From Rhynchopus sp. YZ270_cl-10 (lineage: Eukaryota; Euglenozoa; Diplonemea; Diplonemida; Diplonemidae): 64,000 bases of DNA. The DNA lies in NCBI GenBank assembly GCA_964035575.1, contig OZ037836.1:1240001-1304000 (forward strand). Reading direction: 5' to 3'. Positions 2,443-64,000 of the stretch are shown here, in pieces (the stretch's first letter is position 1; each line of letters starts with the position of its first letter). The position numbers and the translations under genes are program-made. The notes beneath the pieces were generated by a model. It saw only the letters and a list, made by a program, of their open reading frames with translations. It was not told the DNA's origin and searched no databases.

Positions 2443-3663
2443 TCAACCCTTTTTAACCCTCTTGCCAGGACGCACAACAGCGGTGTCCCTCTTCACTCGT
2501 GGCGTCTGTTCCTCCTCACCTTCATCCTCGCTGCACGCAGGCGAACCCTTGCTCTCTGCGAACCCTGCTTCCCTTTCCTCAGAGGGCTCTGTGTCTGCAT
2601 GAAGACGCTTCCGCCTGCACCCTTCTTTCTGCACGGTTGCGGGGTCGGGCACGTTGTCAGTCTCGCATATCAGACCGTGAATCGCGTTTGTCGGCAAAGG
2701 TGGTTCTTTCGCAAGCAACCTCCTCACAACCAGAGCGTCCTTGCTCAACCCTGAAGCATCGATTCTTGTTAACTCTGGGCAGGAGGAGAAGAAGTCCTCC
2801 CCAATACTCCTGACACCGCTCAACGCAAACAGGCCATCGACGACTTGCAAGCGTAAGCAATGCCCAAAGAAGCCCTTCCCAACGGTAACGACACTCCTCA
2901 GCCCCGAAAGACAAACTCTCTTCAACGACGAGCAGCGGAAAAGAAAGTTGTCACCTATTTCGGTGACATTGCTCAACCCCGAAAGGTCCACGGACGTCAA
3001 ATGATAGCAGCAGCAAAGAAAAACCTCCTCAATCACAGTCACGCGGCGAAACACAGAGAGGTCAACCGTTCGCCATGCAGAGTAGCCAAGAAAGCTATCA
3101 CCTATTTTAGTGACACTGCCGAACCCCGACAGGTTGATGCTCTCCAATCCCACGGCGAAGGTGATGAAGTTACGTCCTATCACAGTCACATTGCACAACC
3201 CTGAAAGGTCAACCTCTGTCAACTGTGGGCAATTGTTCAGGAAGTCATCCCCTATTTCGGTGACAACCGACACAGCACTAAGGTCAAGTCGCGTTAACGC
3301 ATTGTTGCGGAAGAAGCCATCAGGAATCACAGTCGCAACCTCCGCCTCCAAAAGCAAACGCGCAACGTCCGGATCGTCCACAGTCTCCAACCTCTGTTTT
3401 GTCAGGTCTGTCTCGCCCAATGCGTGAAGTGCTGCAATGGCATCAAACTTCGTTGTCCTCATGAGCATAATCGTGTCCCCAGCACTCAGCTCCTTGATGC
3501 CCTCCTCTTCACGCAGCACCTCCCCTCTGAAAGTCATCTGAAAGCTGTCTTCCTGCAACCCTGCTGCAGACGCCACCTTCAGACGCAGGTGTCCAAGTGC
3601 ATCATCCACACCCACCTCCACCACATGTTCCTTCTCATCAAAATCCTTTATCGTGAGATCCAT
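2443..3663 (-). CDS. Ubl-LRR protein, type A copy 2
   Basis: 406 residues, the same length and architecture as copy 1: Ubl about 1-70, linker, about eight 23-residue LRRs, and an identical acidic-basic C-terminal tail. Differences cluster at the variable positions inside each LRR (for example the two residues before each Cys), while the scaffold residues are fixed. An upstream in-frame ATG at 3753 would add 30 hydrophobic residues resembling a signal peptide. That stretch is absent from copy 1 and lies outside the family homology, so I start at 3663. The two genes form a direct tandem pair. Confidence 0.85.
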   Translation of the reverse strand: MDLTIKDFDEKEHVVEVGVDDALGHLRLKVASAAGLQEDSFQMTFRGEVLREEEGIKELSAGDTIMLMRTTKFDAIAALHALGETDLTKQRLETVDDPDVARLLLEAEVATVIPDGFFRNNALTRLDLSAVSVVTEIGDDFLNNCPQLTEVDLSGLCNVTVIGRNFITFAVGLESINLSGFGSVTKIGDSFLGYSAWRTVDLSVFRRVTVIEEVFLCCCYHLTSVDLSGLSNVTEIGDNFLFRCSSLKRVCLSGLRSVVTVGKGFFGHCLRLQVVDGLFALSGVRSIGEDFFSSCPELTRIDASGLSKDALVVRRLLAKEPPLPTNAIHGLICETDNVPDPATVQKEGCRRKRLHADTEPSEEREAGFAESKGSPACSEDEGEEEQTPRVKRDTAVVRPGKRVKKG

Positions 3664-18524: not shown

Positions 18525-18921
18525 TGATACCTTCTTCTTTCAGGTTGGGGAGGGAGGTGATAAAAACGCTGCATAAACTCTCGAGGGAGGTGGGAATGTC
18601 TTGTTTTGTCTGTTTTGTGTTGCGACTGAAAAACAGGGAAAAGAAAGAAAACTTGAAAGATGTACCGCAACACGTCTTCACCACCATCGCATGAGGGAAC
18701 AAGAAAAAGGCGGACAAAACCCGCAAACCCAATTCAATCCACGTCCATTCAACCCTTTTTAACCCTCTTGCCAGGACGCACAACAGCGGTGTCCCTCTTC
18801 ACTCGTGGCGTCTGTTCCTCCTCACCTTCATCCTCGCTGCACGCAGGCGAACCCTTGCTCTCTGCGAACCCTGCTTCCCTTTCCTCAGAGGGCTCTGTGT
18901 CTGCATGAAGACGCTTCCACC
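18525..18921. other. Shared 3' flank of type-A genes
   Basis: Continues the type-A spacer after the insertion and closely matches 2223-2442 and beyond. On the minus strand it is the 3' untranslated region of the broken copy, and it includes the out-of-frame remains of that copy's basic tail (about 18780-18921). Confidence 0.7.
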
Positions 18922-19832
18922 TCACCCTTCTTTCTGCACGGTTGCGGGGTCGGGCACGTTGTCAGTCTCGCATCTCAGACCGTGAATCGCGTTTGTCGGT
19001 AAACCCACTCCTTTCGCAAGCAACCTCCTCACAACCAGAGCGTCCTTGCTCAACCCTGAGGCATCGATTGTTGTTAACTCGAAGCAGTATAAGAAGAAGT
19101 CCTTCCCAATACTCCTGACCCCGCTCAACGCAGACAGGCCATCGACGACTTGCAAGCACGAGCCATCCCCAAAGAAGCCCTCCCCAACGGTAACGACACT
19201 CCTCAACCCCGAAAGACAAACTCTCTTCAACGACGAGCAGCCGTAAAGAAAGTGGTCACCTATTTCGGTGACATTGCTCAACCCCGAGAGGTCCACGGAC
19301 GTCAAATGCTTGCAGTAGCTAAGAAAATACCCCTCAATCACAGTCACGCGGCGAAACACAGAGAGGTCAACCGTTCGCAATGCAGAGTCGGCAAAAAATC
19401 CTTGGCCTATTTTAGTGACACTGCCGAACCCCGACAGGTTGATGCTCTCCAATCGCCCGACGCTGTTGATGAAGTGATCTCCAATCACAGTCACATTGCA
19501 CAACCCTGAAAGGTCAAGCTCTGTCAACTCCGTGCACCAGTTCAGGAAGCCATTCCCTATTTCGGTGACAACCGACACAGCACTAAGGTCAAGTCGCGTT
19601 AACTCACTGACTTGCAAGAACTCATCAGGAATCTCAGTCGCAACCTCCGCCTCCAAAAGCAAACGCGCAACGTCCGGATTCTTCACAGTCGCCAACCTCT
19701 CTTTTGTCAGGTCTGTCTCGCCCAATGCGTGAAGTGCTGCAATGGCAGCAAACTTCGTTGTCCTCACGAGCATAATCGTGTCCCCAGCACTCAGCTCCTT
19801 GATGCCCTCCTCTTCACGCAGCACCTCCCCTC
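18922..19832 (-). pseudogene. Type-A Ubl-LRR copy 3, decapitated
   Basis: Retains the last part of the Ubl domain (from LREEEGIKELSAGDTIML), the linker and about eight LRRs, closely related to copies 1 and 2. Upstream of about 19832 the type-A sequence stops abruptly inside the Ubl codons and LINE sequence begins. The C-terminal acidic-basic tail is lost because a small deletion near 18915 shifts the frame, ending the protein after PDPATVQKEG. It therefore lacks both its promoter and its tail. It could only be expressed as part of a LINE-driven transcript. Confidence 0.85.
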
Positions 19833-22471
19833 GTCAACCTTGTCTTTGCCCATAGCCGATATACCGCCGACATCACGGAAATTGGTCGGTGGTCGAGTGG
19901 TTGTGGGTCCTCCACCTTGGCGATCATGCTCACGGTCGCGTGGAGGAGAGCTTCTGGCCATATGCCCGTCTCTTCTACTTGGTTGAGGATTGATGCCAGC
20001 CTGTCGAAGATCCCCGTTGGGAGAAGCGCAAGTTCTTCTGGGTGCCAGCCGTCTGTGCTGGGGGCCTTCCCCTTCGGCATGCTCTCGGCCACGGCTTTCA
20101 GCATCCTTCCGGTGAGGGGTTCTACGTGCATCGGCCGTTGAGGTATGTGTGTGCCAAACCTTTCCTCGAACGCTTCCCACGTGGGTGTGTCACTCAGGGT
20201 GTTGTGCTTTTGGAGTATGGGAAGCCATGCCTCACGCAACCACGTGTCCATGTCCTCCACATTCGCGGTCTCTTCCGTCCCGCGCTTCATCGTGTTGCAC
20301 CGCACTTTGGCTCCGTTGAGGCGCTTGTAGATAAGCCCTGGTGTGGTGTGCCATTGCGTGCGTATCATACGATATCTTTGCGTGGCCCTGTCCCTCTCCA
20401 GGTTCTTTCTGGCAGTTTCGAGTCTCTGGTGCAGGCGCTGTATCAGCTCCAGTGTCGTGCTGGCCTGCGGCTCCTCCTCTGGGGTAGCGTCGAGAATGCT
20501 CACCAGCCCTGCCTTCGCTTTGTCCCACGCCTTGCGTGCGCTGGGTGTGAGGGCTCCTTTGGTGCGTAGAGTGTTGCCGACCTCTGTTAGTCTGCGGATC
20601 GTCTTCCGGATGCGCGTCATCTTGAGGGTCTCTCCTGCGTCGCCTTCGCGAGACTGTCTGCTGCACAGCCAGGTGCGTCGAAGTTTGGGTGGTCGGCCTT
20701 TGCGGAAACATGCTGCTGAGTTGTCGTCTCCCTGCCGTGCCCAGAAGTTGGTCGCATCCTCATTCCATGCTTTCCACTTGTCCTCTACCAATGTGCTTGT
20801 GTGCCATTGTGCTTTGGAACCATCGCAGATCTCTTCAGCCTCCTTTTCCAGGTCTGCCTTCGTTTTCTTCCTGCTCAGTTCATCCTGTTGTAGCATAGGG
20901 GCCCTTTCCTGCTTGAGCACACGCTGCCTGAACGTCATATTCTCAAATGTCGCGTCCAGGGGGATGTGTGAAGGTATTCCGGCCGTCCCCGTTTTGCACC
21001 CTGCCAGCGCAAGCACCGCAATCTGGTTGGCCAGGATGATGTCAATTCGTGAGCACACACTTTTGGCTTCAGACTTTGTGCTCTTACCGATGTGGGTGTG
21101 CTCTGGCTCTTGGTTGGCCCAGCCCGCGGCTCGTTCGGCACAGTCCGTCCATCGTTCTGAGCTGATGGCTAGGGATATTGCTTCGCTTGAGCTGGGTTCT
21201 GGGTGGCTGTTGCAATCCCCGAGGATAATCGCTGGTACGTCCCCTATCTCTGCTTCTGCAAATACATCCGATAGGAAGCTCTCGCGCTCTTGCTTTGCTT
21301 GCGGGGAGTTGCCGACTTTCGCGTATATCACGAATAGGTGTAGAAAATGGTTCCCTGCCCCATGTGCCACCTTTGCGTGCAGGTAACGCTTTGAGTCCCA
21401 GAGTCTCTTTGCTCGTTCAGTATCTCTCCTGACCACACTTGCTGGTATGCCTCGTTTCACCATTAGGCCCACCCCCTTGTGTTCTCCGTAGCTCTGTTGT
21501 ATTGCGTTTGGAAGTAACTTTACTGGGCACCCCCAGAGACCTGTCCAGCCTTGTTCATACAGCGTTCGGGAAGCTTGGGCCTGTTTCTTCTGTGTGAGCC
21601 GGGTCTCCTGCAGTGCGACTATGTCGTTGTCCCAACTCCACACCTCCTCCTGGTGAGCATTCATTGAGGTGATGTTGGCAGTACGTATGGACAGGTTTGG
21701 AGTGGCCCGGGCAGCGCGGCGTCGCTTTCTCTCCGTCTTGGTACGTTTCCGTGAGCGAGACACTGCGATATTCGTGTCCAGGTTCTCCAGCGTGACACAG
21801 CGGTTGCCCTCTGCCTGCGTCGTTGCAATCAGCGACAACAGCCCCTCGGTTGCTTTGAGGCGGTCGAAGTGCTCGGGCCTGTACGTGAGCACAACTGGGT
21901 TCGATGTAGGTGGTCCGCCGACGTGGCTAAACCGTTTCGCTCTGGCATCCAGTACCCAGATGGCCCTGTCGAGTATGCTTGCCGCAGTCTGTAGCTCACG
22001 TTCTCCACCGTACGTTCCTTGCATTCTCATTTTGGCTAGGTGTTGCGTGTAGGTGGAAGGTTCGTTTGCCTCAGGAGAGTAGCTGTCAGCATAGAGGTCA
22101 CTGTCGTCGTTTTGCAGTACGTCCACCACCCGTTGTCGCAGTGAGTTCGTTGTCCACCCCTCGCTCTGCTCAGCTATGGCAGAGAATAGGCAGTCCCCGT
22201 CTGGCGCTACTGCTATCCTTGTAGAGTTGATACTGCGGGCTGTTGCGTCCAACCACTCCTTGTGGTCGGTGATGGCCCTCAGTGGGTTCACGGGATTGTC
22301 GTTGTTTTTGGGGTAGGCGCTCCTACCTATCCCCGGTTCTATGTGCGATTCTAAGTACGTATCTAATCTAGTGGGGGGGGTGAGGTGGGGGAGTGGAGGG
22401 GTTGGGTCTAGAATCAAACGAACAGGAGATCGTTGATCTCGTCCGCAATCGCCTTCGACTCCTTCTTCCAC
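19814..22471 (-). CDS. LINE ORF2: OTU protease, APE endonuclease, truncated RT
   Basis: 885 residues. OTU-family cysteine protease at about 70-210, with PDGDCLF (D91, C94), the GGERELQ strand and YRPEH (H201), so the catalytic set looks complete. APE-type endonuclease at about 260-510, with N266, LQET (E289), Y383, GDCN (D419, N421), RID (D477) and SH (H502) all present. Then a Lys/Arg-rich linker and the first RT motifs (PKGKAPSTDGW; HRPISVMSAVYRLW) before the frame ends at the junction with the LRR pseudogene. It starts 58 bp inside ORF1 in another frame, suggesting reinitiation or frameshifting. OTU domains cleave ubiquitin; endonuclease and RT act in target-primed reverse transcription. 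As it stands, this copy cannot encode a complete RT. Confidence 0.85.
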   Translation of the reverse strand: MEEGVEGDCGRDQRSPVRLILDPTPPLPHLTPPTRLDTYLESHIEPGIGRSAYPKNNDNPVNPLRAITDHKEWLDATARSINSTRIAVAPDGDCLFSAIAEQSEGWTTNSLRQRVVDVLQNDDSDLYADSYSPEANEPSTYTQHLAKMRMQGTYGGERELQTAASILDRAIWVLDARAKRFSHVGGPPTSNPVVLTYRPEHFDRLKATEGLLSLIATTQAEGNRCVTLENLDTNIAVSRSRKRTKTERKRRRAARATPNLSIRTANITSMNAHQEEVWSWDNDIVALQETRLTQKKQAQASRTLYEQGWTGLWGCPVKLLPNAIQQSYGEHKGVGLMVKRGIPASVVRRDTERAKRLWDSKRYLHAKVAHGAGNHFLHLFVIYAKVGNSPQAKQERESFLSDVFAEAEIGDVPAIILGDCNSHPEPSSSEAISLAISSERWTDCAERAAGWANQEPEHTHIGKSTKSEAKSVCSRIDIILANQIAVLALAGCKTGTAGIPSHIPLDATFENMTFRQRVLKQERAPMLQQDELSRKKTKADLEKEAEEICDGSKAQWHTSTLVEDKWKAWNEDATNFWARQGDDNSAACFRKGRPPKLRRTWLCSRQSREGDAGETLKMTRIRKTIRRLTEVGNTLRTKGALTPSARKAWDKAKAGLVSILDATPEEEPQASTTLELIQRLHQRLETARKNLERDRATQRYRMIRTQWHTTPGLIYKRLNGAKVRCNTMKRGTEETANVEDMDTWLREAWLPILQKHNTLSDTPTWEAFEERFGTHIPQRPMHVEPLTGRMLKAVAESMPKGKAPSTDGWHPEELALLPTGIFDRLASILNQVEETGIWPEALLHATVSMIAKVEDPQPLDHRPISVMSAVYRLWAKTRLTRGGAA

Positions 22472-24231
22472 CGCTCCATCTCCTCCGTCCCCTCCGTCAC
22501 CTTTCCCGCCCCCTTTCCCATCTTTCCGCCGTCCTTCGACTTGCCCTTTTTGCGCTGGGGGGGGCCCGACCCGAAGATGTCGTCCATTGTGCTTCCCTTT
22601 CCCGCGCCGGACGACTTTGACCCCTTTTGCTTGTTGGGGGTGGTTGGTGGCGACAGTGTCTCGGTCGCGGTTTTCGGCTTTACCGTCTCGTTGGCCTTCA
22701 CATCACAGTCCTTCGTGTCCTCCGTGGTGCTTTGTTGTTGTTGGAGCGGAGAGGGTGGGTGAGCCGGTTCCGCGTTGGTGGTAGGCTGGAGTAGCCTGAG
22801 GAGGTGGGCCAGGTGCGCGTCCGTCGCCTCCTGTCGTGCCTCCGCTGCACACTGCCGAGCCACCACCGTCGCCAGCGCCGCGTTCATCTCCTCCTGAGCT
22901 TTGTTGTTACTGATAACTGCAGAGAGGATTTGCTCCCGCTGAGCTTCCGCGTTTGTCGCCAGTTCTTCCGCTCTGGTGGCGTGGCTGTCCATCTTGGACA
23001 GTTGGAGCACTTGACGCTCTAGGAGCGCTTCAATGCCCTTGCCCATTTGTAGAAGAGGGGTGGTGATAGAGGTGAGGTCGGCCGGTGTTGCGTTGTGGTT
23101 CTGATGCTGTTGGGGAAGTTGGTGCTGAACTACGCGCTGCATCCATGCCAGCTCCAGCTTCTGTCCCTGTTCGAACAGCTTTTTGCCTCTGTCCGCGCCG
23201 TACTCTGCTACAAATTCTTGGCTGGTGTATTTTACCTTCCTGTTTCTCTCTGTGGGGTCAGGTACCCGTGTAGGAAGCTGTTGGTGGGTGTCTGCTGTGG
23301 TGGTGACGGTGCTGGTATCTCTTGCTACTGCAGGGAGGATTGACACCACTAGGCTCTGCCACTTGACGCTGCTGTGCGGTGGCTGCGTCTCTGCGCGCAC
23401 CACGAGGGTCTTTTCCCCCGTTCTGCCCTTGCTGAGCAGCGTCACCACCCGCGCCCCCTCCCACTTCATCGCCTTCAGTGCCGCGATGCAGTCCTGCTTC
23501 GTTGCGGGGGGAGGAACCGGCCTGAGGTCGAAGAGCTGGGTGGTGGTGTGCGTTGTGGTGCTGTCGGGTATCTCGAACGTGAATGTGGGGGCGTCATCCA
23601 TCGCCTCCGGGGCACCACCGCTGCTACCTCCCCTTAGCCTACCCAGCTCCCACACGTTGCAGTGCGTCCTGCACATCCGGAGCGACTCCTTGTCGCTCAT
23701 GTCCCTCCCGTTGATGGTAAGGCGGTGCACGTCCCTGCGTCCACCTGTCTTCGCGCGCACTGCCGCCTTCAGGTCAGCCACCGAGTCCGTGTCGCTGACG
23801 TCCACTGTCACTGTCTTTCCAGTCAGCGTTCGCACAAAAATCTGCCTTTTTACCTCTTCATTTTCTTCTTCTTTTTGTTCCGAGTCTTTGCCGCAGTCCT
23901 CTGCGTTGCCCGGGGTCACCTCGTGGAGGTGCTCGGTAAAAACCCCACTCTCCAACTTCTCGGCTGTGATGTCTGTCACACCCAACGCATGAAGCTCTGC
24001 AATGGCTTCGTACTTCTGCGACTTCTTCGTGAGGATGATTGTGTCACCAGCACTCAGCTGCGTCATGTCCGCTCCTTCTCCCATCGGTTCGCCTCCGAAA
24101 CTCATGCAAAAGCCGTCTTCAGGCAACCCCATTGCAGTCGCCACCTTCCGCCGCATCACCGCAAGTGTATCATCCTCACCCAGCTCGACCGTATGCTTCA
24201 CTCCGTTCAACCCCTTGATAGTCAAATCCAT
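19833..24231 (-). mobile_element. LINE 5' half with ubiquitin-fold ORF1 and OTU-APE ORF2
   Basis: Two overlapping minus-strand ORFs of a non-LTR retrotransposon, cut off in the reverse transcriptase where type-A LRR sequence begins (about 19832). ORF1 opens with a Ubl domain nearly identical to that of type-B LRR genes, followed by a ubiquitin and a gag-like region. ORF2 has OTU, APE endonuclease and the start of RT. No target duplication can be seen because the 3' end is missing. A separate 3' half of a LINE lies at 61795-64000. Confidence 0.8.
22414..24231 (-). CDS. LINE ORF1: Ubl plus ubiquitin plus gag-like protein
   Basis: 605 residues from the ATG shared with the LRR genes. Residues 1-95 are the host-type Ubl and linker (MDLTIKGL to ITAEKLES). 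Residues 130-202 are a second, ubiquitin-like domain (QIFVRTLTGKT to GRLRGG) that keeps the C-terminal LRGG cleavage signature. From 203 the protein is unlike any LRR protein: a possible RNA-binding region (about 215-305), Q/H-rich linker, coiled coil (about 385-480) and Lys/Gly-rich basic tail. There is no Met between the first Ubl and the ubiquitin, so the Ubl appears to be the real start of this ORF. Cleavage after LRGG by a deubiquitinase would free the gag-like part (inference). Confidence 0.75.
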   Translation of the reverse strand: MDLTIKGLNGVKHTVELGEDDTLAVMRRKVATAMGLPEDGFCMSFGGEPMGEGADMTQLSAGDTIILTKKSQKYEAIAELHALGVTDITAEKLESGVFTEHLHEVTPGNAEDCGKDSEQKEEENEEVKRQIFVRTLTGKTVTVDVSDTDSVADLKAAVRAKTGGRRDVHRLTINGRDMSDKESLRMCRTHCNVWELGRLRGGSSGGAPEAMDDAPTFTFEIPDSTTTHTTTQLFDLRPVPPPATKQDCIAALKAMKWEGARVVTLLSKGRTGEKTLVVRAETQPPHSSVKWQSLVVSILPAVARDTSTVTTTADTHQQLPTRVPDPTERNRKVKYTSQEFVAEYGADRGKKLFEQGQKLELAWMQRVVQHQLPQQHQNHNATPADLTSITTPLLQMGKGIEALLERQVLQLSKMDSHATRAEELATNAEAQREQILSAVISNNKAQEEMNAALATVVARQCAAEARQEATDAHLAHLLRLLQPTTNAEPAHPPSPLQQQQSTTEDTKDCDVKANETVKPKTATETLSPPTTPNKQKGSKSSGAGKGSTMDDIFGSGPPQRKKGKSKDGGKMGKGAGKVTEGTEEMERWKKESKAIADEINDLLFV

Positions 24232-24950
24232 ATTTGTGTCGCTCTGTATCATAGGTAACGGAGGGTGATGGTGATGTGGAGAAGGTGAGGAGGTGTGGGG
24301 GAAATAAACAAGAGTTTCTTTTTTTTTAGGCCTCGAGCATGGTCATGCACGGATTCGGGTGTTTGCACGATGGCGAAGCAATGGGAGGTACATGTAACTA
24401 TAGCTACATATAGCATTACATGTCTTGATGGGATTATCCGGAAAGACGGGACATAGTTACATTTTCATTTTTCATTAGGAATTCATGTACTTTTTGCAGA
24501 GTATAAATATTCCCCTACGCCGTCTGCTTTAATCGTATGCAACGAAATAAAGGTGGGCAAGAGAGAGGAGCCTAGGGGGAAGTGTTCCACTCTTGAGTAT
24601 CAGGTGTGTCGGCAGAAGGTCTGATTCAAAGAAGACTTGGTGAAGCAGGGTGGGGAACAATTCTGCAATTCGTTGTTGAGAACTGCGAGTCGAAATAACA
24701 TTGTTCTCGGGGTGTAGTGGTGGGGGTCATAACTAAACAGCACCAAACTTCAGGCACAATTTGGTGCTAGTGCATGTAACATTATGCTAATATTACATGC
24801 TACATGTAACATTACAAGGTCTGACTGGTGTGGGTAGGGGCTTTGGTGGGTTACGGTCAAGATTATCCGAACCAGAGGACGCAAGCAGACATACTGCCAG
24901 AGACCCTCCACCTCGGGGAGGTGCTGCCCTGCCACCAACACACCACGTCG
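24232..24950. other. Intergenic, ACATGTAACATTA clusters
   Basis: The leader of the LINE ORF1 differs from all LRR-gene leaders. Bases 24385-24440 and 24770-24825 carry clustered, partly palindromic ACATGTAA and TAGCATTACATG words. From about 24875 the sequence is the shared 3' flank of type-B genes. No gene is seen. Confidence 0.5.
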
Positions 24951-26650: not shown

Positions 26651-26909
26651 AGGGAAAACAAACTTTTCGTCTGCGTGCGCGTCGGGACGTCCCCCAGAAA
26701 AACCCAGGCAGGCATGCAAAAAAAAGTTTGTTTTAATGGTGTGATTTTCCTAAAAATTAGGTGTAAATTGGGTACTTCTTGGGTCCTTCTTGGGTATAGT
26801 GATTTTCCTTAGGGCACTTCCTTAAGGAAAACGTGATCTTTTTCCCGAGCTTTCCCTGTGGTTAGTAGCCTTGTTTTCGCAAAAATTTTCTCAAAATCCG
26901 GGATTGGCA

Positions 26910-27604
26910 CCCAGTACCCAGTACCCAGTACCCAGTACCCAGTACCCAGTACCCAGTACCCAGTACCCAGTACCCAGTACCCAGTACCCAGTACCCAGTA
27001 CCCAGTACCCAGTACCCAGTACCCAGTACCCAGTACCCAGTACCCAGTACCCAGTACCCAGTACCCAGTACCCAGTACCCAGTACCCAGTACCCAGTACC
27101 CAGTACCCAGTACCCAGTACCCAGTACCCAGTACCCAGTACCCAGTACCCAGTACCCAGTACCCAGTACCCAGTACCCAGTACCCAGTACCCAGTACCCA
27201 GTACCCAGTACCCAGTACCCAGTACCCAGTACCCAGTACCCAGTACCCAGTACCCAGTACCCAGTACCCAGTACCCAGTACCCAGTACCCAGTACCCAGT
27301 ACCCAGTACCCAGTACCCAGTACCCAGTACCCAGTACCCAGTACCCAGTACCCAGTACCCAGTACCCAGTACCCAGTACCCAGTACCCAGTACCCAGTAC
27401 CCAGTACCCAGTACCCAGTACCCAGTACCCAGTACCCAGTACCCAGTACCCAGTACCCAGTACCCAGTACCCAGTACCCAGTACCCAGTACCCAGTACCC
27501 AGTACCCAGTACCCAGTACCCAGTACCCAGTACCCAGTACCCAGTACCCAGTACCCAGTACCCAGTACCCAGTACCCAGTACCCAGTACCCAGTACCCAG
27601 TACC
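26910..27604. repeat. (CCCAGTA)n satellite, about 99 copies
   Basis: Perfect 7-bp tandem array of 695 bp. It yields long artefactual open frames on both strands, which I do not call genes. One copy of the dispersed GCGCCGCAGGCGCACGG motif lies 74 bp to the right. Confidence 0.97.
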
Positions 27605-35600: not shown

Positions 35601-36140
35601 ACCAGGCATTTTCATAGTTCATGAAATGCTGGAGACATACATCTTAGGTACGTACGTAATACGCGGCAAATAGGTAGCAAAAATAATAAAATACATAGTG
35701 AACTGAGGACTGAAAGGAAATAAGCAACAAGACTCTGTCATTGTATCGCATCTAATGACAAACAACAGTTTGCACTGTATAAACTGTGCAATGATATGCA
35801 TACCATGACCTTTTACCTCCCCGGGCCCCATCTGGGACCCTCACCACCCCCCTGGTGTGTACATACCTGTCAGCACCAGCCCCCACAACCCACAAGAACC
35901 CACCAAAAGAGTCCACCTAGGCATACATGGTAAGCGAACAAAAAATTCGCTTTATTCGCTTTTGGTTCGCTTTTTTATTCGCTTTATTCGCCGGCGAATA
36001 AAGCGAATAAAGCGAACCAAAAGCGAACGAAAAAGCGAACAAAAAGCGAATAAAAAGCAACGTATTTTTTGTCAAGTCTAGTGTGTCGAGTCTAGTCCCC
36101 CGAGATCCCCCAATACCCGCAACGACGCCAAAATAAGGCT

Positions 36141-37013
36141 ACTGTACTGTACTGTACTGTACTGTACTGTACTGTACTGTACTGTACTGTACTGTACTGT
36201 ACTGTACTGTACTGTACTGTACTGTACTGTACTGTACTGTACTGTGCTGTACTGTACTGTACTGTACTGTACTGTACTGTACTGTACTGTACTGTACTGT
36301 ACTGTACTGTACTGTACTGTACTGTACTGTACTGTACTGTACTGTACTGTACTGTACTGTACTGTACTGTACTGTACTGTACTGTACTGTACTGTACTGT
36401 ACTGTACTGTACTGTACTGTACTGTACTGTACTGTACTGTACTGTACTGTACTGTACTGTACTGTACTGTACTGTACTGTACTGTACTGTACTGTACTGT
36501 ACTGTACTGTACTGTACTGTACTGTACTGTACTGTACTGTACTGTACTGTACTGTACTGTACTGTACTGTACTGTACTGTACTGTACTGTACTGTACTGT
36601 ACTGTACTGTACTGTACTGTACTGTACTGTACTGTACTGTACTGTACTGTACTGTACTGTACTGTACTGTACTGTACTGTACTGTACTGTACTGTACTGT
36701 ACTGTACTGTACTGTACTGTACTGTACTGTACTGTACTGTACTGTACTGTACTGTACTGTACTGTACTGTACTGTACTGTACTGTACTGTACTGTACTGT
36801 ACTGTACTGTACTGTACTGTACTGTACTGTACTGTACTGTACTGTACTGTACTGTACTGTACTGTACTGTACTGTACTGTACTGTACTGTACTGTACTGT
36901 ACTGTACTGTACTGTACTGTACTGTACTGTACTGTACTGTACTGTACTGTACTGTACTGTACTGTACTGTACTGTACTGTACTGTACTGTACTGTACTGT
37001 ACTGTACTGTACT
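36141..37013. repeat. (CTGTA)n satellite, about 174 copies
   Basis: An 873-bp array with a single substitution near 36246. Same unit and strand as the array at the start of the window. It gives spurious 300-400-codon frames on both strands, which are rejected. Confidence 0.97.
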
Positions 37014-37022
37014 CCCAATCCC

Positions 37023-37356
37023 CTGTGTATACTGTGTATACTGTGTATACTGTGTATACTGTGTATACTGTGTATACTGTGTATACTGTGTATACTGTGT
37101 ATACTGTGTATACTGTGTATACTGTGTATACTGTGTATACTGTGTATACTGTGTATACTGTGTATACTGTGTATACTGTGTATACTGTGTATACTGTGTA
37201 TACTGTGTATACTGTGTATACTGTGTATACTGTGTATACTGTGTATACTGTGTATACTGTGTATACTGTGTATACTGTGTATACTGTGTATACTGTGTAT
37301 ACTGTGTATACTGTGTATACTGTGTATACTGTGTATACTGTGTATACTGTGTATAC
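37023..37356. repeat. (CTGTGTATA)n satellite, about 37 copies
   Basis: A 9-bp tandem repeat adjoining the CTGTA array across a 9-bp gap. Its unit may derive from the neighbouring ACTGTA repeat (both contain TACTGT). Confidence 0.95.
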
Positions 37357-37913
37357 TCAGTACTCAGCACCCACTAGCTCTCAGTAAGCTCTCACAGCCT
37401 GTTACGTGTCCCACGGAGACGATCATAGATCACCCAAAGGCGAATAAAAGGCGAATAAAGCGAATAAAAAAGCGAACCAAAAGCGAATAAAGCGAATAAA
37501 GCGAATAAAAAAGCGAACCAAAAGCGAATAAAGCGAACTTTTTATTCGCTTTTTTGGAAAAGCGAATAAAGCGAATTTTTTGTTCGCTTACCATGTATGC
37601 CTAGGGGGACTATAGTCCCCCTAGGTGGACTACATAGTCCCCCTAGGGGGACTCTATAGTCCCCCTAGGGGGACTATGGAGTCCCCCTAATCCGACACCC
37701 CAAAAGAGTAACTCCCCCCCGGGTAGACTCCACCGTGTAGTTGCCTCGGTTGTGTTGCCACAGGTGTGCAATCTCCACTGTTTTTTTCTGTTCCTACAAA
37801 ATGGACACTGGAAATCACTTTGTTGTGCAAAGTCTGGTTCCAACTTTTTCCTTTATTAAAAAGTACCAGTTCTTTGACAAGCCGCGAACCTCTACAAAAA
37901 AGCCCTGGAAAGC

Positions 37914-45764: not shown

Positions 45765-46461
45765 TCACTTCTGGCTTTGCTCGGGGGATTCGTCTCTGCT
45801 TCGTTTCGGACGTGCTTCAACCACAAGCTTACTCAGCTTCTTGTCCTTCCTCACTTCGTTGGACACAACACTGCTGCAGCCGGAAAGGTAAATGCTCGTC
45901 AACGAAGTGCAGTTCGCAGCAAAACGCGTCCCTGGTAAACTGCTATGAATCTGCGTCACATTGCTGAGTGGTGACAAACCCAGAGATGTTAAACTGCTGC
46001 AGTTCGCGAGGAAATATGCACCCACCTGCGTCACGTTGTTGAGTGGTGATAAATCGATGTTGGTTAAGCTGCTGCACTCGAAAAGAAAGCACGCACCAAC
46101 CTGCGTCACATTGCGGAGTGCAGATAAATCGACGTTGGTTAAGCTCGTGCAGGTAGAAAGAAAGCTGTTACCAACCTGCGTCACATTGCTCAACCCAGAG
46201 AGCTTGATGCTTGTCAACGAAGTGCAGTTGCACAGGAACCTGTCTCCAATGCGAGTCACAATGGACTCAGCACTGAGATCAAGTCTCGTCAACGAAGTGC
46301 CTGACAAGAAGTAATTCGGAATGACAGTCGCAACCTCCGCCTGCAGAAGCAAACACGCCACCTCAGGATCCTCCACACTCTCCAACTTCTCGGCTGTGAT
46401 GTCGGTCACACCCAACGCATGAAGCTCTGCAATGGCTTCGTACTTCTTCGTCTTCGTGAGG
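45765..46461 (-). pseudogene. Type-B copy 3, 3' part (split gene)
   Basis: Linker, six LRRs and a tail ending SQK, like copy 2. The N-terminal Ubl half lies at 49125-49340, separated by a 2.66-kb insertion. The break falls in the codons for LTKTKK, just after the Ubl. The two halves overlap by the 19-bp target duplication CTTCTTCGTCTTCGTGAGG. Unless the insertion is spliced out, no full Ubl-LRR protein is made. Confidence 0.85.
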
Positions 46462-47149
46462 TAGGGGTCCGTTTTAGGTCTCTGGCAGGCCGGGCCTTCT
46501 TTCTGTGGCCTTCCCAACCAAAAGACCCCCAAAAAACACAGGTACCTGCTGCGTTTAATGGCACTTTACCCCAGTCCCTGGAACAGATCGGCAAGCCGAC
46601 CAGCCCAGGTATGCATGCCAACACTACTGGGGGTGCACTGTTCGATAGCATAAAAGAAAAGTCAAAAAGTCAAAAAGACAAGAAGGTCAAACAAAATAGG
46701 TACTTCGAACAGGGCTGACAGGAGGGGATTCTCACCCGAGGTTCGGTGCCTGTCAGGCTGCGATTAGTGGTTCTGGGTGATTCCCTTCTTCCTAGCCACC
46801 GTTACCGCGGTGCCCGCACCGTAAGAGAGTGGGGACGGTTCACGACCGTTCGTACGCGTCAGCAAAAGTAGGGGTCGGAGTCCAGGCCCGAACCGGAAAC
46901 ATTAACCTCCGTTTTTCGAAACATTAAAAAGTAAAAATGAAAAAGAAAAATCAACAGCAAGAGCAGTGTTGCTGTAAAAGAAACAGCAGCACCGTCAGCT
47001 AACATGTCCACACAATATGGCAGACGGCCACACAAAATTCCCCTGATTTGTACAGAGAAAGTTGTAACTTCTTCCTTACAAGTAAGGGAGTGCCGGCAGG
47101 GAAGGAGTTACAACAAACAGTGAACAAACTCAAGTACCAGCCTTTCCGC

Positions 47150-61794: not shown

Positions 61795-64000
61795 TTAATG
61801 CCTAGTGAGGGTAATTCTTGCGCAGAATATGGCCCTTAGGTGTGGGGGGGGCTACGTCACCTGCGAAGACCCCGCGGGGTGTTGCCTGTGATGTAGGGGG
61901 AGTGTGCCTCGTGTTGACGTGCTGTTATTGATGTGGCGTGTGTGGCACGTTCCGCAGCACTGGGCCAATGATTTCTTGTCTAGCAAGCATGCCCCACATC
62001 TCGTGAGTCTATGTTTCGTGCAGAAGTCCATCACAATGGCGCGGCCATCGCCTTCTGTGTGGTGTAGGCTGCAGCAGGTTTCTGGAGCGGCTCGCAGCGT
62101 CTTGCACGAGTTACATCGCACTTTGCCGTGGGTCAGACAAGACAAGGTTTTGGCGCACTTTCTGGCGTCTGGAGGGGCCGTGCGAGGTGGGCGGGCCCGT
62201 CCTGCAGCTCTGGCTTCAGTCGCTCTGCCTCGCCATCCTGCGGAGGCTTCAGTCCAGTCATCAGCGTAATGCTCTTGCGGCCGGAACTGGGCTGCCCAAG
62301 CCTGGGTCTCCTCGTACAAGAGGGAGCGGCGGTTCCCTGCAAAGGCTGCTATGTGCGACTGTAGGTGGCGCAGTACCTCCTCAGTTTTGCTGTTGAGAAC
62401 TGCTCGTTTGCTCACACCACTGGTCACCGAACCTCCGATGGCAGTAAGGCTAGTGACGTTGGTGTAGTGGCCGTACATCCAGGACTGTGGTTTGTACACC
62501 TTCGCAAAGGTCTGCATCAGCTCGCCCAGTGAGAGTGACTTGGCCAACGCGCTTTGCAGGAAGGTGTCGCGTTCCGAGGAGGCAGCGGCAAGTTCTGCTT
62601 GCTTCTGGTTCTCCACCTCATCCATTGCCTGGTTGCTGACAGCGTCAGCGTCCTTGTTTCGCTCTCGCGCGATGTGGCGGAACCCCAGGGTGAAACGGGG
62701 TTGAACCTCTCTGATCAGTTCTTTAGCCACGAGGAACAGCGGTTTGAGGAAATCGTTGCAGTCAGCTACCCCCCGGAGCTGGTCCACAATCAGCTTGGAG
62801 TCTCCGCTGATGGTGACCGGGCCTTGCAGCTCAGAGGGGAGTTCGTTGAGGAGGCGGAGGCCACTGATGACTCCTTCGTACTCCGCCACGTTGTTGCTTC
62901 TGGCTGAGGGAAGTGGGGTGGCCACCGATGCGCTCTTGACACCATCCACATATACCACCGCTCCTGCCCCAGCCCTCGCGAAGACAGTTTTGTTCTGTCT
63001 TGCTCCGCCGTCAAAGAACATTTCCACCCCGCTGTGGTCCGCGATATGGTCCCTAACCGTGCACGACGAGGTAGAGGCTTTGAACTGCGGATAGCGGCGG
63101 CTGCCAACGTCTGGGAGCGGCATTCCTGTGGTGAGCTCAAAGTCCACTGCCAGCTCGATGAGGCTGATTGAGTGTTCGGACCCGACGTGGGCCCACTGAA
63201 GTCCTCGCACCCAGGAGTTTAGTGCATGCCAAAGGTCTTCGTTGTGTTTCCACTGTTGACGGACGCTCTCGTAGCTGTAGACTGGGAGATGTACCTGTCT
63301 GGGCTGGGGTGAGGACCAGCCCCACGGAAAGCTCTGCAGCCGGTGGTGTCTGGCAGATTCTTCGGGGCGGTCGGCACGGATCTGTCGCTCTTTTACCACC
63401 TCCACAAAGAAGCGTTGGAGACTCCTGACGATGAAGCATCTGTCGTCCGAGTTTTGCGGTAGCGCATTGTCCCCTTGTCGGAAGGCTGGGGCCACCCCAC
63501 ATATCGACAGGCAATTTGGCCAATTGGTTCGATCCTGCGATGTGATGCTGTGCCTGGCTCGCACCGACGACCACGCCTGGCAGTCCCACCAAAGATGCTC
63601 AACCGTCTCTCGTTCGCCAGACACGCAATAGGGGCAAGATGTTGTGCTGAGGCCTGAGCGGCCCGTGGTGTTCACCGCACCCGCGATGACTGATCTGAGA
63701 ATGCCTTTCTGGTAGCCGGTTAACTCGTTAGCAGAGTCCTCTAACAGGTGCCTGGTTGTGTGGCCATCGACACCATGCTGCAGGCCTTCGAAGTCGGGGC
63801 GCCTGTTAGCCATTTTTGAGAGTATCTCCGTACGGAGGAAGTGGCGGGCTTCTGCCTCCATTCCTGCCACTTGCTTGTCTGTGAGCGTACTCAGCTCCAA
63901 GGTAGCAGCGTCACCTGCCTCGTTCACAAAGCTAATCGACGTTGGAGACTGCCATGTCCAGCCGAGTGCTCGCAGGGTGAGCGAGATGAGATGGAATGGG
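61795..64000 (-). mobile_element. LINE 3' half
   Basis: Runs off the window. The 3' end is short: about 57 bp of untranslated sequence after the stop at 61852, ending near AGGCATTAAA against the type-B leader, with no poly(A) tail. Probably the same family as the OTU-bearing LINE, but the parts present do not overlap, so this cannot be shown here. Confidence 0.75.
61852..64000 (-). CDS. LINE ORF2 C-terminal region: zinc knuckle, RNase H, Cys/His tail
   Basis: Open from the window edge for at least 715 codons. Counting from the GTG at 63927: a zf-RVT-like knuckle CPYC-ETVEHLWWDC (98-116); RNase H about 300-435 with FFDGGAR (D306), NNVAEYEG (E349), ISGDSK (D376) and RNKDADAV (D428), so the catalytic set looks complete; a helical linker; and a C-terminal Cys/His cluster (RCNSCK, CCSLHH, CTKHRLTRCGAC, CCGTCHTRH) that may bind zinc and nucleic acid. 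The RT itself lies outside the window. RNase H removes RNA from the cDNA hybrid. Confidence 0.8.
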   Translation of the reverse strand, partial: PFHLISLTLRALGWTWQSPTSISFVNEAGDAATLELSTLTDKQVAGMEAEARHFLRTEILSKMANRRPDFEGLQHGVDGHTTRHLLEDSANELTGYQKGILRSVIAGAVNTTGRSGLSTTSCPYCVSGERETVEHLWWDCQAWSSVRARHSITSQDRTNWPNCLSICGVAPAFRQGDNALPQNSDDRCFIVRSLQRFFVEVVKERQIRADRPEESARHHRLQSFPWGWSSPQPRQVHLPVYSYESVRQQWKHNEDLWHALNSWVRGLQWAHVGSEHSISLIELAVDFELTTGMPLPDVGSRRYPQFKASTSSCTVRDHIADHSGVEMFFDGGARQNKTVFARAGAGAVVYVDGVKSASVATPLPSARSNNVAEYEGVISGLRLLNELPSELQGPVTISGDSKLIVDQLRGVADCNDFLKPLFLVAKELIREVQPRFTLGFRHIARERNKDADAVSNQAMDEVENQKQAELAAASSERDTFLQSALAKSLSLGELMQTFAKVYKPQSWMYGHYTNVTSLTAIGGSVTSGVSKRAVLNSKTEEVLRHLQSHIAAFAGNRRSLLYEETQAWAAQFRPQEHYADDWTEASAGWRGRATEARAAGRARPPRTAPPDARKCAKTLSCLTHGKVRCNSCKTLRAAPETCCSLHHTEGDGRAIVMDFCTKHRLTRCGACLLDKKSLAQCCGTCHTRHINNSTSTRGTLPLHHRQHPAGSSQVT

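Follow-up and report, generated by a model that had tools for sequence, protein, structure and literature searches.

A site-directed LINE from a diplonemid carries a ubiquitin domain in ORF1, an OTU protease in ORF2 and a predicted 5′ ribozyme

Introduction

R2 retrotransposons are co-transcribed with their target, and a ribozyme resembling that of hepatitis delta virus (HDV) frees the exact 5′ end of the element, no promoter of its own having been detected (PMC3774820, PMC12203849); the ribozyme is thought to serve both release and the start of translation (PMC12203849). In Euglenozoa, RHS genes are a landing site for long interspersed nuclear elements (LINEs) (PMC7563717), and the mobile elements Ginger1 and Helitrons contain a deubiquitinase-type domain of the OTU/Ulp1 kind (PMC2836005). 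Here we describe a LINE from the diplonemid Rhynchopus sp. YZ270_cl-10, located in a stretch of 64,000 nt of contig OZ037836.1 (positions 1,240,001 to 1,304,000; hereafter the window). The first of its two open reading frames (ORFs), ORF1, contains a ubiquitin domain, and the second, ORF2, opens with an OTU protease.

OTU domains occur in LINEs elsewhere, the endonuclease of R2 is restriction-like, and in L1Tc a 2A sequence follows the Pr77 ribozyme. Ubiquitin is used for processing in ubiquitin-ribosomal protein fusions and in pestivirus polyproteins that contain cellular ubiquitin, where the downstream protein is freed after the GG. We know of no ubiquitin processing fusion in a LINE. We propose, with a probability of roughly 60% and on sequence evidence, that the element is a site-directed, ribozyme-processed euglenozoan LINE in which ubiquitin stands in for 2A and would be cut after LRGG, giving a uniform ORF1 protein (ORF1p).

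Results

Structure and borders of the element

The two overlapping minus-strand ORFs that an initial annotation of the window had assigned to a LINE are confirmed (Table 1), and the LINE, the LRGG-ended ubiquitin and the ORF2 with OTU and apurinic/apyrimidinic endonuclease (APE) domains are real. The ubiquitin-like domain predicted in ORF1 matches PF00240 at 2.5e-16 (best stretch residues 138-194), ends RLRGG|S and is modelled as a beta-grasp fold whose best match is ubiquitin (template modelling score, TM, 0.71), although at a mean pLDDT of 65 the confidence of this model is low. ORF2 opens with an OTU protease as annotated (PF02338, 5.1e-8; OTUD3, 1.1e-4, among PDB sequences), and the residue numbers given for the catalytic triad, D91, C94 and H201, are exact. 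The three residues are invariant in 4/4 aligned OTU stretches (the window copy, L012 and two copies of family Z, see below); the structure model of the OTU is weak (mean pLDDT 63). The APE that had been placed behind the OTU is also there. Reverse transcriptase (RT) and RNase H were identified in other copies, the window copy being cut in the RT: PF00078 (8.4e-23) and PF13456 (1e-4) match in two pieces of L010 that contain portions of adjacent copies on contig C20. The cut lies at 19832/19833, where the RT is joined to a second host gene, and ORF2 of the window copy is left without most of the RT and without the RNase H present in other copies. The RT has one named relative, from Diplonema papillatum (44% over 16% of the query). 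As to the host, spliced-leader trans-splicing is common to all Euglenozoa (PMC10161547), and a query with the euglenozoan spliced-leader 3′-end motif gave 673 genome matches at up to 1 mismatch (control 0), the listed ones being clustered and all one base off. PF00034, used to place the host, gave 0 matches.

ORF2 is in frame -1 relative to ORF1, as worked out by hand, and is 962 aa from stop to stop. It is open for about 77 codons upstream of its first alternative start, a GTG, and in the window copy has no ATG before the OTU cysteine.

The first domain of ORF1, a ubiquitin-like (Ubl) domain previously read as part of the element, belongs to the host. ORF1 residues ~7-102 are the N-terminus of a gene family that encodes a Ubl followed by BspA-type leucine-rich repeats (LRRs): identity to subfamily-B copies is 86-92% for DNA (matches >200 bp) and 76-84% for protein (matches >60 aa), and the similarity stops at 23943-23946, no more than 3 nt from the first base of the element. 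In the search for the host family, the stretch 23947..24231 is match C4:1263947-1264231. Comparison of the window with itself rules out Ubl-ubiquitin-gag as the element's own order; that ubiquitin precedes the gag position stands, while the Ubl lies in the target gene. The annotated borders, 19814..24231, had to be given up as well, as there is host sequence at both ends and the LINE between them is 3′-truncated. On the far side, the subfamily-A stretch 18900-19832 is 90-91% identical to window copies at 903-1836 and 2594-3527. The near-identical copy L002 (L045) has, at its 3′ side, the same 20 nt as the target-site copy here, AGCCGAGAAGTTGGAGAGTG. A phage tblastn search gave 0 matches.

Table 1. 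Features of the LINE and of the host sequence on either side of it (window positions)
Feature	Position	Strand	Evidence or remark
LINE body, 5′-complete, 3′-truncated in RT	19833..23946	-	5′ end common to 26 places; 100% to C4:1222917-1225556
ORF1	24252..22414	-	open reading frame list
ORF2	22471..19814	-	open reading frame list; overlaps ORF1
ORF2, element part, from first alternative start (GTG), cut in RT	19833..22471	-	
Host: 5′ part of subfamily-B Ubl-LRR gene (start codon, Ubl, linker ..TAEKLES), upstream of insertion	23947..24231	-	86-92% DNA identity
Target-site copy, 5′ side (AGCCGAGAAGTTGGAGAGTG)	23946..23965	-	
HDV-like self-cleaving ribozyme (predicted)	23878..23946	-	RF02682 match
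Ubiquitin domain of ORF1 (RQIFVRTL..RLRGG, 74 aa)	23626..23847	-	PF00240; model TM 0.71
Remainder of ORF1 (SSGGAPEAMDD..), gag position	22414..23625	-	no Pfam domain over cut-off
OTU protease domain, D91-C94-H201	21827..22276	-	hand-set limits; Pfam stretch is residues 90-177
APE-type endonuclease (EEP)	21017..21631	-	PF03372 7.6e-7, residues 281-485
Host: 3′ part of subfamily-A Ubl-LRR gene (end of Ubl and LRR_5), joined to broken RT	18922..19832	-	PF13306 7.9e-17

Copies and families in the genome

The genome holding the window comprises 152.4 Mb in 126 contigs, in which ORF2 has at least 51 matches (51 scored of 283 first-look candidates). Eight are near-identical copies (98.8-100%), three are fragments of the same family (L009-L011), and one, L012, is an OTU-bearing fragment inside another gene (87%). 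Family Y, with 27 copies, is about 33% identical to ORF2, the similarity starting at the APE; family Z, with 12 copies, is about 30% identical with the OTU included. Ubiquitin is present in all eight near-identical copies, and the four fragments (L009-L012) end short of the ubiquitin region. The union of ubiquitin and OTU in one element, suggested from the window alone, thus recurs in 8/8 copies in which the 5′ end and the OTU-APE ORF2 are both present, and a one-off chimera at the window locus is ruled out. The Ubl drops out as a part of the element. A ninth LINE-type ubiquitin, in a piece of ORF1, lies on contig C29 (L063/L068, protein P0002).

The OTU-family copies are spread over 7 contigs, and one pair, the window copy and C4:1222917-1225556, is a local duplication, with 100% identity along 880 aa and at 1700/1700 nt upstream. 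The eight copies fall into two ORF1 lineages of four: ORF1 identity is 61% in L005-L007 (residues 130-488, a stretch that includes the ubiquitin) and 52% in L008 (residues 130-564). Because ORF2 is ~99% identical between the same lineages, we infer that ORF1 and ORF2 have recombined. An ORF1 protein search gave 26 matches, of which P0001 and P0002 belong to the LINE family of the window; five of the other 24 were inspected, all of them ubiquitin repeats, and 19 were judged from Pfam labels and coverage. With 8000 candidates scored, the search for ORF1 relatives without ubiquitin gave a single match, which is from the same family.

Some copies have an unusual gene context. In the C29:704041 region, P0002 unites the ubiquitin-gag start with a Ubl-LRR host gene in one open frame of 937 aa, and by eye the Ubl-LRR part includes a stretch resembling a B-box; this could reflect domestication, or else the gene model may be chimeric. 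L005 (C3:1034397-1039946) has ORF1 and ORF2 in one open frame of 2452 aa that extends through the host Ubl, which sets it apart from the other copies seen. L012 (C14:1433637-1437401, protein P0027) has the ORF1 tail and OTU behind an Arg/Asp-rich, host-like ORF of 623 aa.

Insertion site

The Ubl-LRR target family is very large, with 11 ORFs in the window and at least 151 matches genome-wide (150 scored of 1662 first-look candidates). The 5′ end of the element occurs 26 times at up to 3 mismatches (control 0). A strict target motif caught 11/26 of these ends and was too narrow, so that all 26 junctions were inspected instead: 22 are preceded by the target codons ..(E/A/Q/K)(R/K)(L/F)xx between Ubl and LRR, namely 8/8 ends of the OTU family and 14/18 others. 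Three of the 22 on-site ends (L033, L035, L056) follow a different element, being inserted at a target copy immediately after it. The other four ends are off site, with L063 located inside a related gene's Ubl and L049, L058 and L059 at other places.

The 3′ sides are similar. All six OTU-family copies examined are flanked by target copies on both sides, and five continue directly with the target and then the gene's LRR part; in the sixth, L040, a short element with the target on either side of it comes before the LRR part. Four of the six pairs of flanks share at least 20 nt (20, 20-21, 20 and 20 nt), and two share 14 and 13 nt with mismatches; these target-site duplications and a fixed 3′ tail are further features of a LINE. 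The tail occurs 112 times. When every fifth of 100 listed occurrences was sampled (n=20), 18 entered the target and 2 did not; 16 of the 18 have a Ubl-LRR frame, L075 is on target by DNA similarity only, and L078 has a LINE behind the target. The 3′ end of L004 likewise runs into the target, then into a 5′-truncated LINE (L010). As far as sequence can, the junctions show a site-directed LINE whose target is a single codon site separating the Ubl from the LRR part, with target duplications of ~20 bp.

Short elements of about 600 bp (L033, L035, L040) have the 3′ tail of the LINE, a different 5′ end and the same target, and stand in tandem with the LINE; they are likely its short interspersed element (SINE). 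Some Ubl-LRR genes have their Ubl start exchanged (45765-46532 and L037, ..GVFWLGR.QKEGPACQRPKTDPY..; L050 is similar).

The 5′ end and the ubiquitin domain

Beyond the exact site, two features of the 5′ end had escaped the initial annotation, a match to an HDV-like ribozyme and the absence of a start codon. Positions 1-74 of the RF02682 model align to the first 69 nt of the element at a score of 37.2 bits (E 1.4e-5 in 311 bases), model position 1 is the first base of the element, and predicted cleavage falls exactly there. Helices P1 (GGGGUU/GACCCC), P3 (ACC/GGU) and P4 (CGCAG/CUGCG) and the joining segment J4/2 (GCAAAGA) can be drawn by hand in the classic arrangement, and the core aligns with the model; the pseudoknot P2 (CCGAG/CUCGG; DNA CCGAG/CTCGG), also drawn by hand, is outside the pairs displayed for the Rfam model. 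Judged by its occurrences, the ~70-nt 5′ module is common to several elements. In L046-L062 the frame closes after 38 aa in 15/17 cases (..QHLKCLMEYEDR), and these elements may be non-autonomous or a separate family.

The reading frame is open from base 1 of the element in 9/9 copies, with an in-frame GTG inside the predicted ribozyme in each, and 0/9 have an in-frame ATG ahead of the ubiquitin within the element. Ubiquitin starts 99 nt from the start of the element, or 75 nt in L063, whose linker is 24 nt shorter, a difference divisible by 3. By eye, ORF1 of the window copy has no NPGP that would mark a 2A at its N-terminus; ubiquitin holds that position. RLRGG is kept in 9/9 copies. Between the two ORF1 lineages, the ubiquitin (75 codons) differs at 6 synonymous versus 2 non-synonymous positions (pS 0.108, pN 0.012; Fisher one-sided p 0.003), and the lineages differ from L063 by 4 versus 1 and 5 versus 3 (p 0.013 and 0.023). 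This synonymous excess points to purifying selection on ubiquitin as a protein, and hence to its translation. By hand comparison, L8 is kept along with RLRGG, whereas I44 is replaced by T and K48 by R, and K63 is lost. Given the changes at K48 and K63, a role of the ORF1 ubiquitin as a chain-building degradation tag appears unlikely.

Other repeats in the window

Long, near-perfect microsatellites lie at 26909-27604 ((ACCCAGT)99), 36140-37013 ((TACTG)175) and 37023-37357 ((CTGTGTATA)37). On the minus strand, 61852-63927 looks by eye like a further LINE's 3′ part; it contains Cys/His motifs and a stretch resembling RNase H.

Discussion

In the scheme that we favour, the RNA of the element would be co-transcribed with the host Ubl-LRR gene, and the predicted HDV-like ribozyme would release it from the co-transcript by cutting at its first base, in the manner of R2 and L1Tc/ingi. 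Translation could start at the ribozyme end without an AUG, for which the in-frame GTG is available, or at the ATG of the host gene where the frame allows. ORF1p would then be made with variable N-terminal additions, and a ubiquitin hydrolase cutting after RLRGG|S would yield one uniform ORF1p whatever the start. Ubiquitin would thereby fill the role that 2A has in L1Tc. Host enzymes should be enough for this step; the OTU of the element may help but need not be the cutting enzyme. More tentatively, ribozyme and ubiquitin might form a start module that replaces start codon and 2A and rides the host transcript, with the OTU able to cut.

Several observations weigh against this scheme. The match of 37.2 bits is below the Rfam gathering score of 44, as are equivalent matches in four other copies (L034, L046, L062 and L063; 34.9-37.8 bits), and at the gathering cut-off Rfam gave 0 matches over the whole window. 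In the search that gave these four, what is surely a chance match to mir-H11 (41 bits, gathering score 70) even obtained a better E-value (1.4e-4) than the ribozyme matches (0.00094 and worse), so that sub-threshold scores alone prove nothing. The whole-genome search with RF02682 found none at E <= 1e-3 with 61 of 15036 candidates scored, an uninformative result as the controls were also silent. The plain minimum-energy fold is unremarkable (z -1.25; 26/200 shuffles as good), by a method that draws no pseudoknots, and the ribozyme copies are too alike for covariation. The predicted ribozyme leans mostly on its exact coincidence with the end of the element, and the same ~70 nt also start the 17 elements without ubiquitin (L046-L062). 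On the protein side, the domain is ~38% identical to host (poly)ubiquitin and 2 residues shorter, which together with I44T makes recognition by deubiquitinases uncertain; the selection signal comes from few differences; and in 4/8 copies the host ATG is out of frame or another insert lies between.

That ubiquitin and OTU occur together in 8/8 copies reaching both, with the catalytic D, C and H intact and both domains in a single 2452-aa frame in L005, could mean that the OTU is the dedicated cutter of the ubiquitin-gag fusion, strips host ubiquitin from the particle, or both. We consider this doubtful. In family Z, ORF1 has its own ATG and, by eye and in the 2 copies inspected of 12, no ubiquitin, although the OTU is present; judged from these copies, the OTU is older or more widespread than the ubiquitin and not tied to it, so that it would not have arisen for ubiquitin. 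The lack of an ATG ahead of the OTU cysteine in ORF2 is a further difficulty. Family Y has no OTU before the APE in the 3 copies inspected of 27.

About equally doubtful is that ubiquitin is kept uncut as the N-terminal domain of ORF1p, for binding host ubiquitin receptors, for resistance to degradation or as a folding aid. A diverged surface (I44T, K48R, K63 lost) combined with signs of purifying selection speaks for it, but the RLRGG that is exact in all nine copies is what a hydrolase reads and should be needed only for cleavage or conjugation.

Somewhat less probable still, we think, is that ORF1 is started by the host gene through in-frame insertion, with host promoter, spliced leader, ATG and Ubl, and that ubiquitin serves to remove the host part. 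The window copy, its duplicate L031, L034 and the fragment L063 do continue in frame into the host Ubl, L037 continues into a 64-aa stretch with a Met, and the frame is more easily kept when the target codon is fixed. However, four of the eight OTU-family copies are unfused: L032 and L036 are one G shorter and miss the host frame by one base, and in L033 and L035 the upstream frame enters a short insert without Met. Host-supplied translation is thus not general, and fusion to the host ATG is ruled out as the general start; a 5′ ribozyme, moreover, would cut the host part away. Finally, that ubiquitin is a chance, neutral passenger and the site preference a result of copying within gene arrays is very improbable. 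In its favour, the copies number nine, of which eight belong to two near-identical lineages, there are few differences for measuring selection, and one pair (window, C4:1222917) is a local duplication; the synonymous excess over ubiquitin, the spread over 7 contigs and the target copies on both sides in 6/6 examined copies speak against it.

If ribozyme and ubiquitin do form such a start module, this would be the first retrotransposon known to us to use ubiquitin as a protein-processing tag, and two rare strategies, RNA release by a ribozyme and protein release by ubiquitin, would meet in one element. It also makes the start of ORF1 in LINEs without an AUG testable. Next to RHS in trypanosomes, the Ubl-LRR genes would be a further euglenozoan gene family in which LINEs land, and the element offers an exact site within protein-coding genes instead of ribosomal DNA (rDNA). 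A limited search of titles and abstract starts on ubiquitin and retrotransposons turned up no LINE with an encoded ubiquitin; in the available part of PMC4628103, ubiquitin is only a control gene.

Among known systems, the element resembles R2 in its single-site insertion into a multicopy gene, the co-transcription with the target (proposed here) and the HDV-like ribozyme (predicted here). It differs in that R2 sits in 28S rDNA and has one ORF (PMC12203849), whereas here the targets are protein genes, the endonuclease is an APE and the target duplications are ~20 bp. With Ginger1 and Helitrons it shares a deubiquitinase-type domain; these are, however, DNA transposons, for which the available portion of the source mentions no encoded ubiquitin (PMC2836005). 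Like the known ubiquitin-processing fusions, ORF1 has ubiquitin upstream of a protein.

The likeness to L1Tc/ingi consists of shared features. Both are euglenozoan LINEs with a 5′ HDV-like ribozyme (predicted here), accompanied by a shorter partner element, and the ribozyme module is common to several elements, as Pr77 is in trypanosomatids (PMC4035085). In both, the insertion hot spot falls within the coding sequence of a large gene family and has an N-terminal coding part upstream of it (PMC7563717), and both have an N-terminal cutting module, which is 2A in L1Tc (PMC4981915) and would be ubiquitin here. The present element differs in its target (Ubl-LRR, not RHS), in having ubiquitin rather than 2A, in its separate ORF1 and in the OTU of ORF2.

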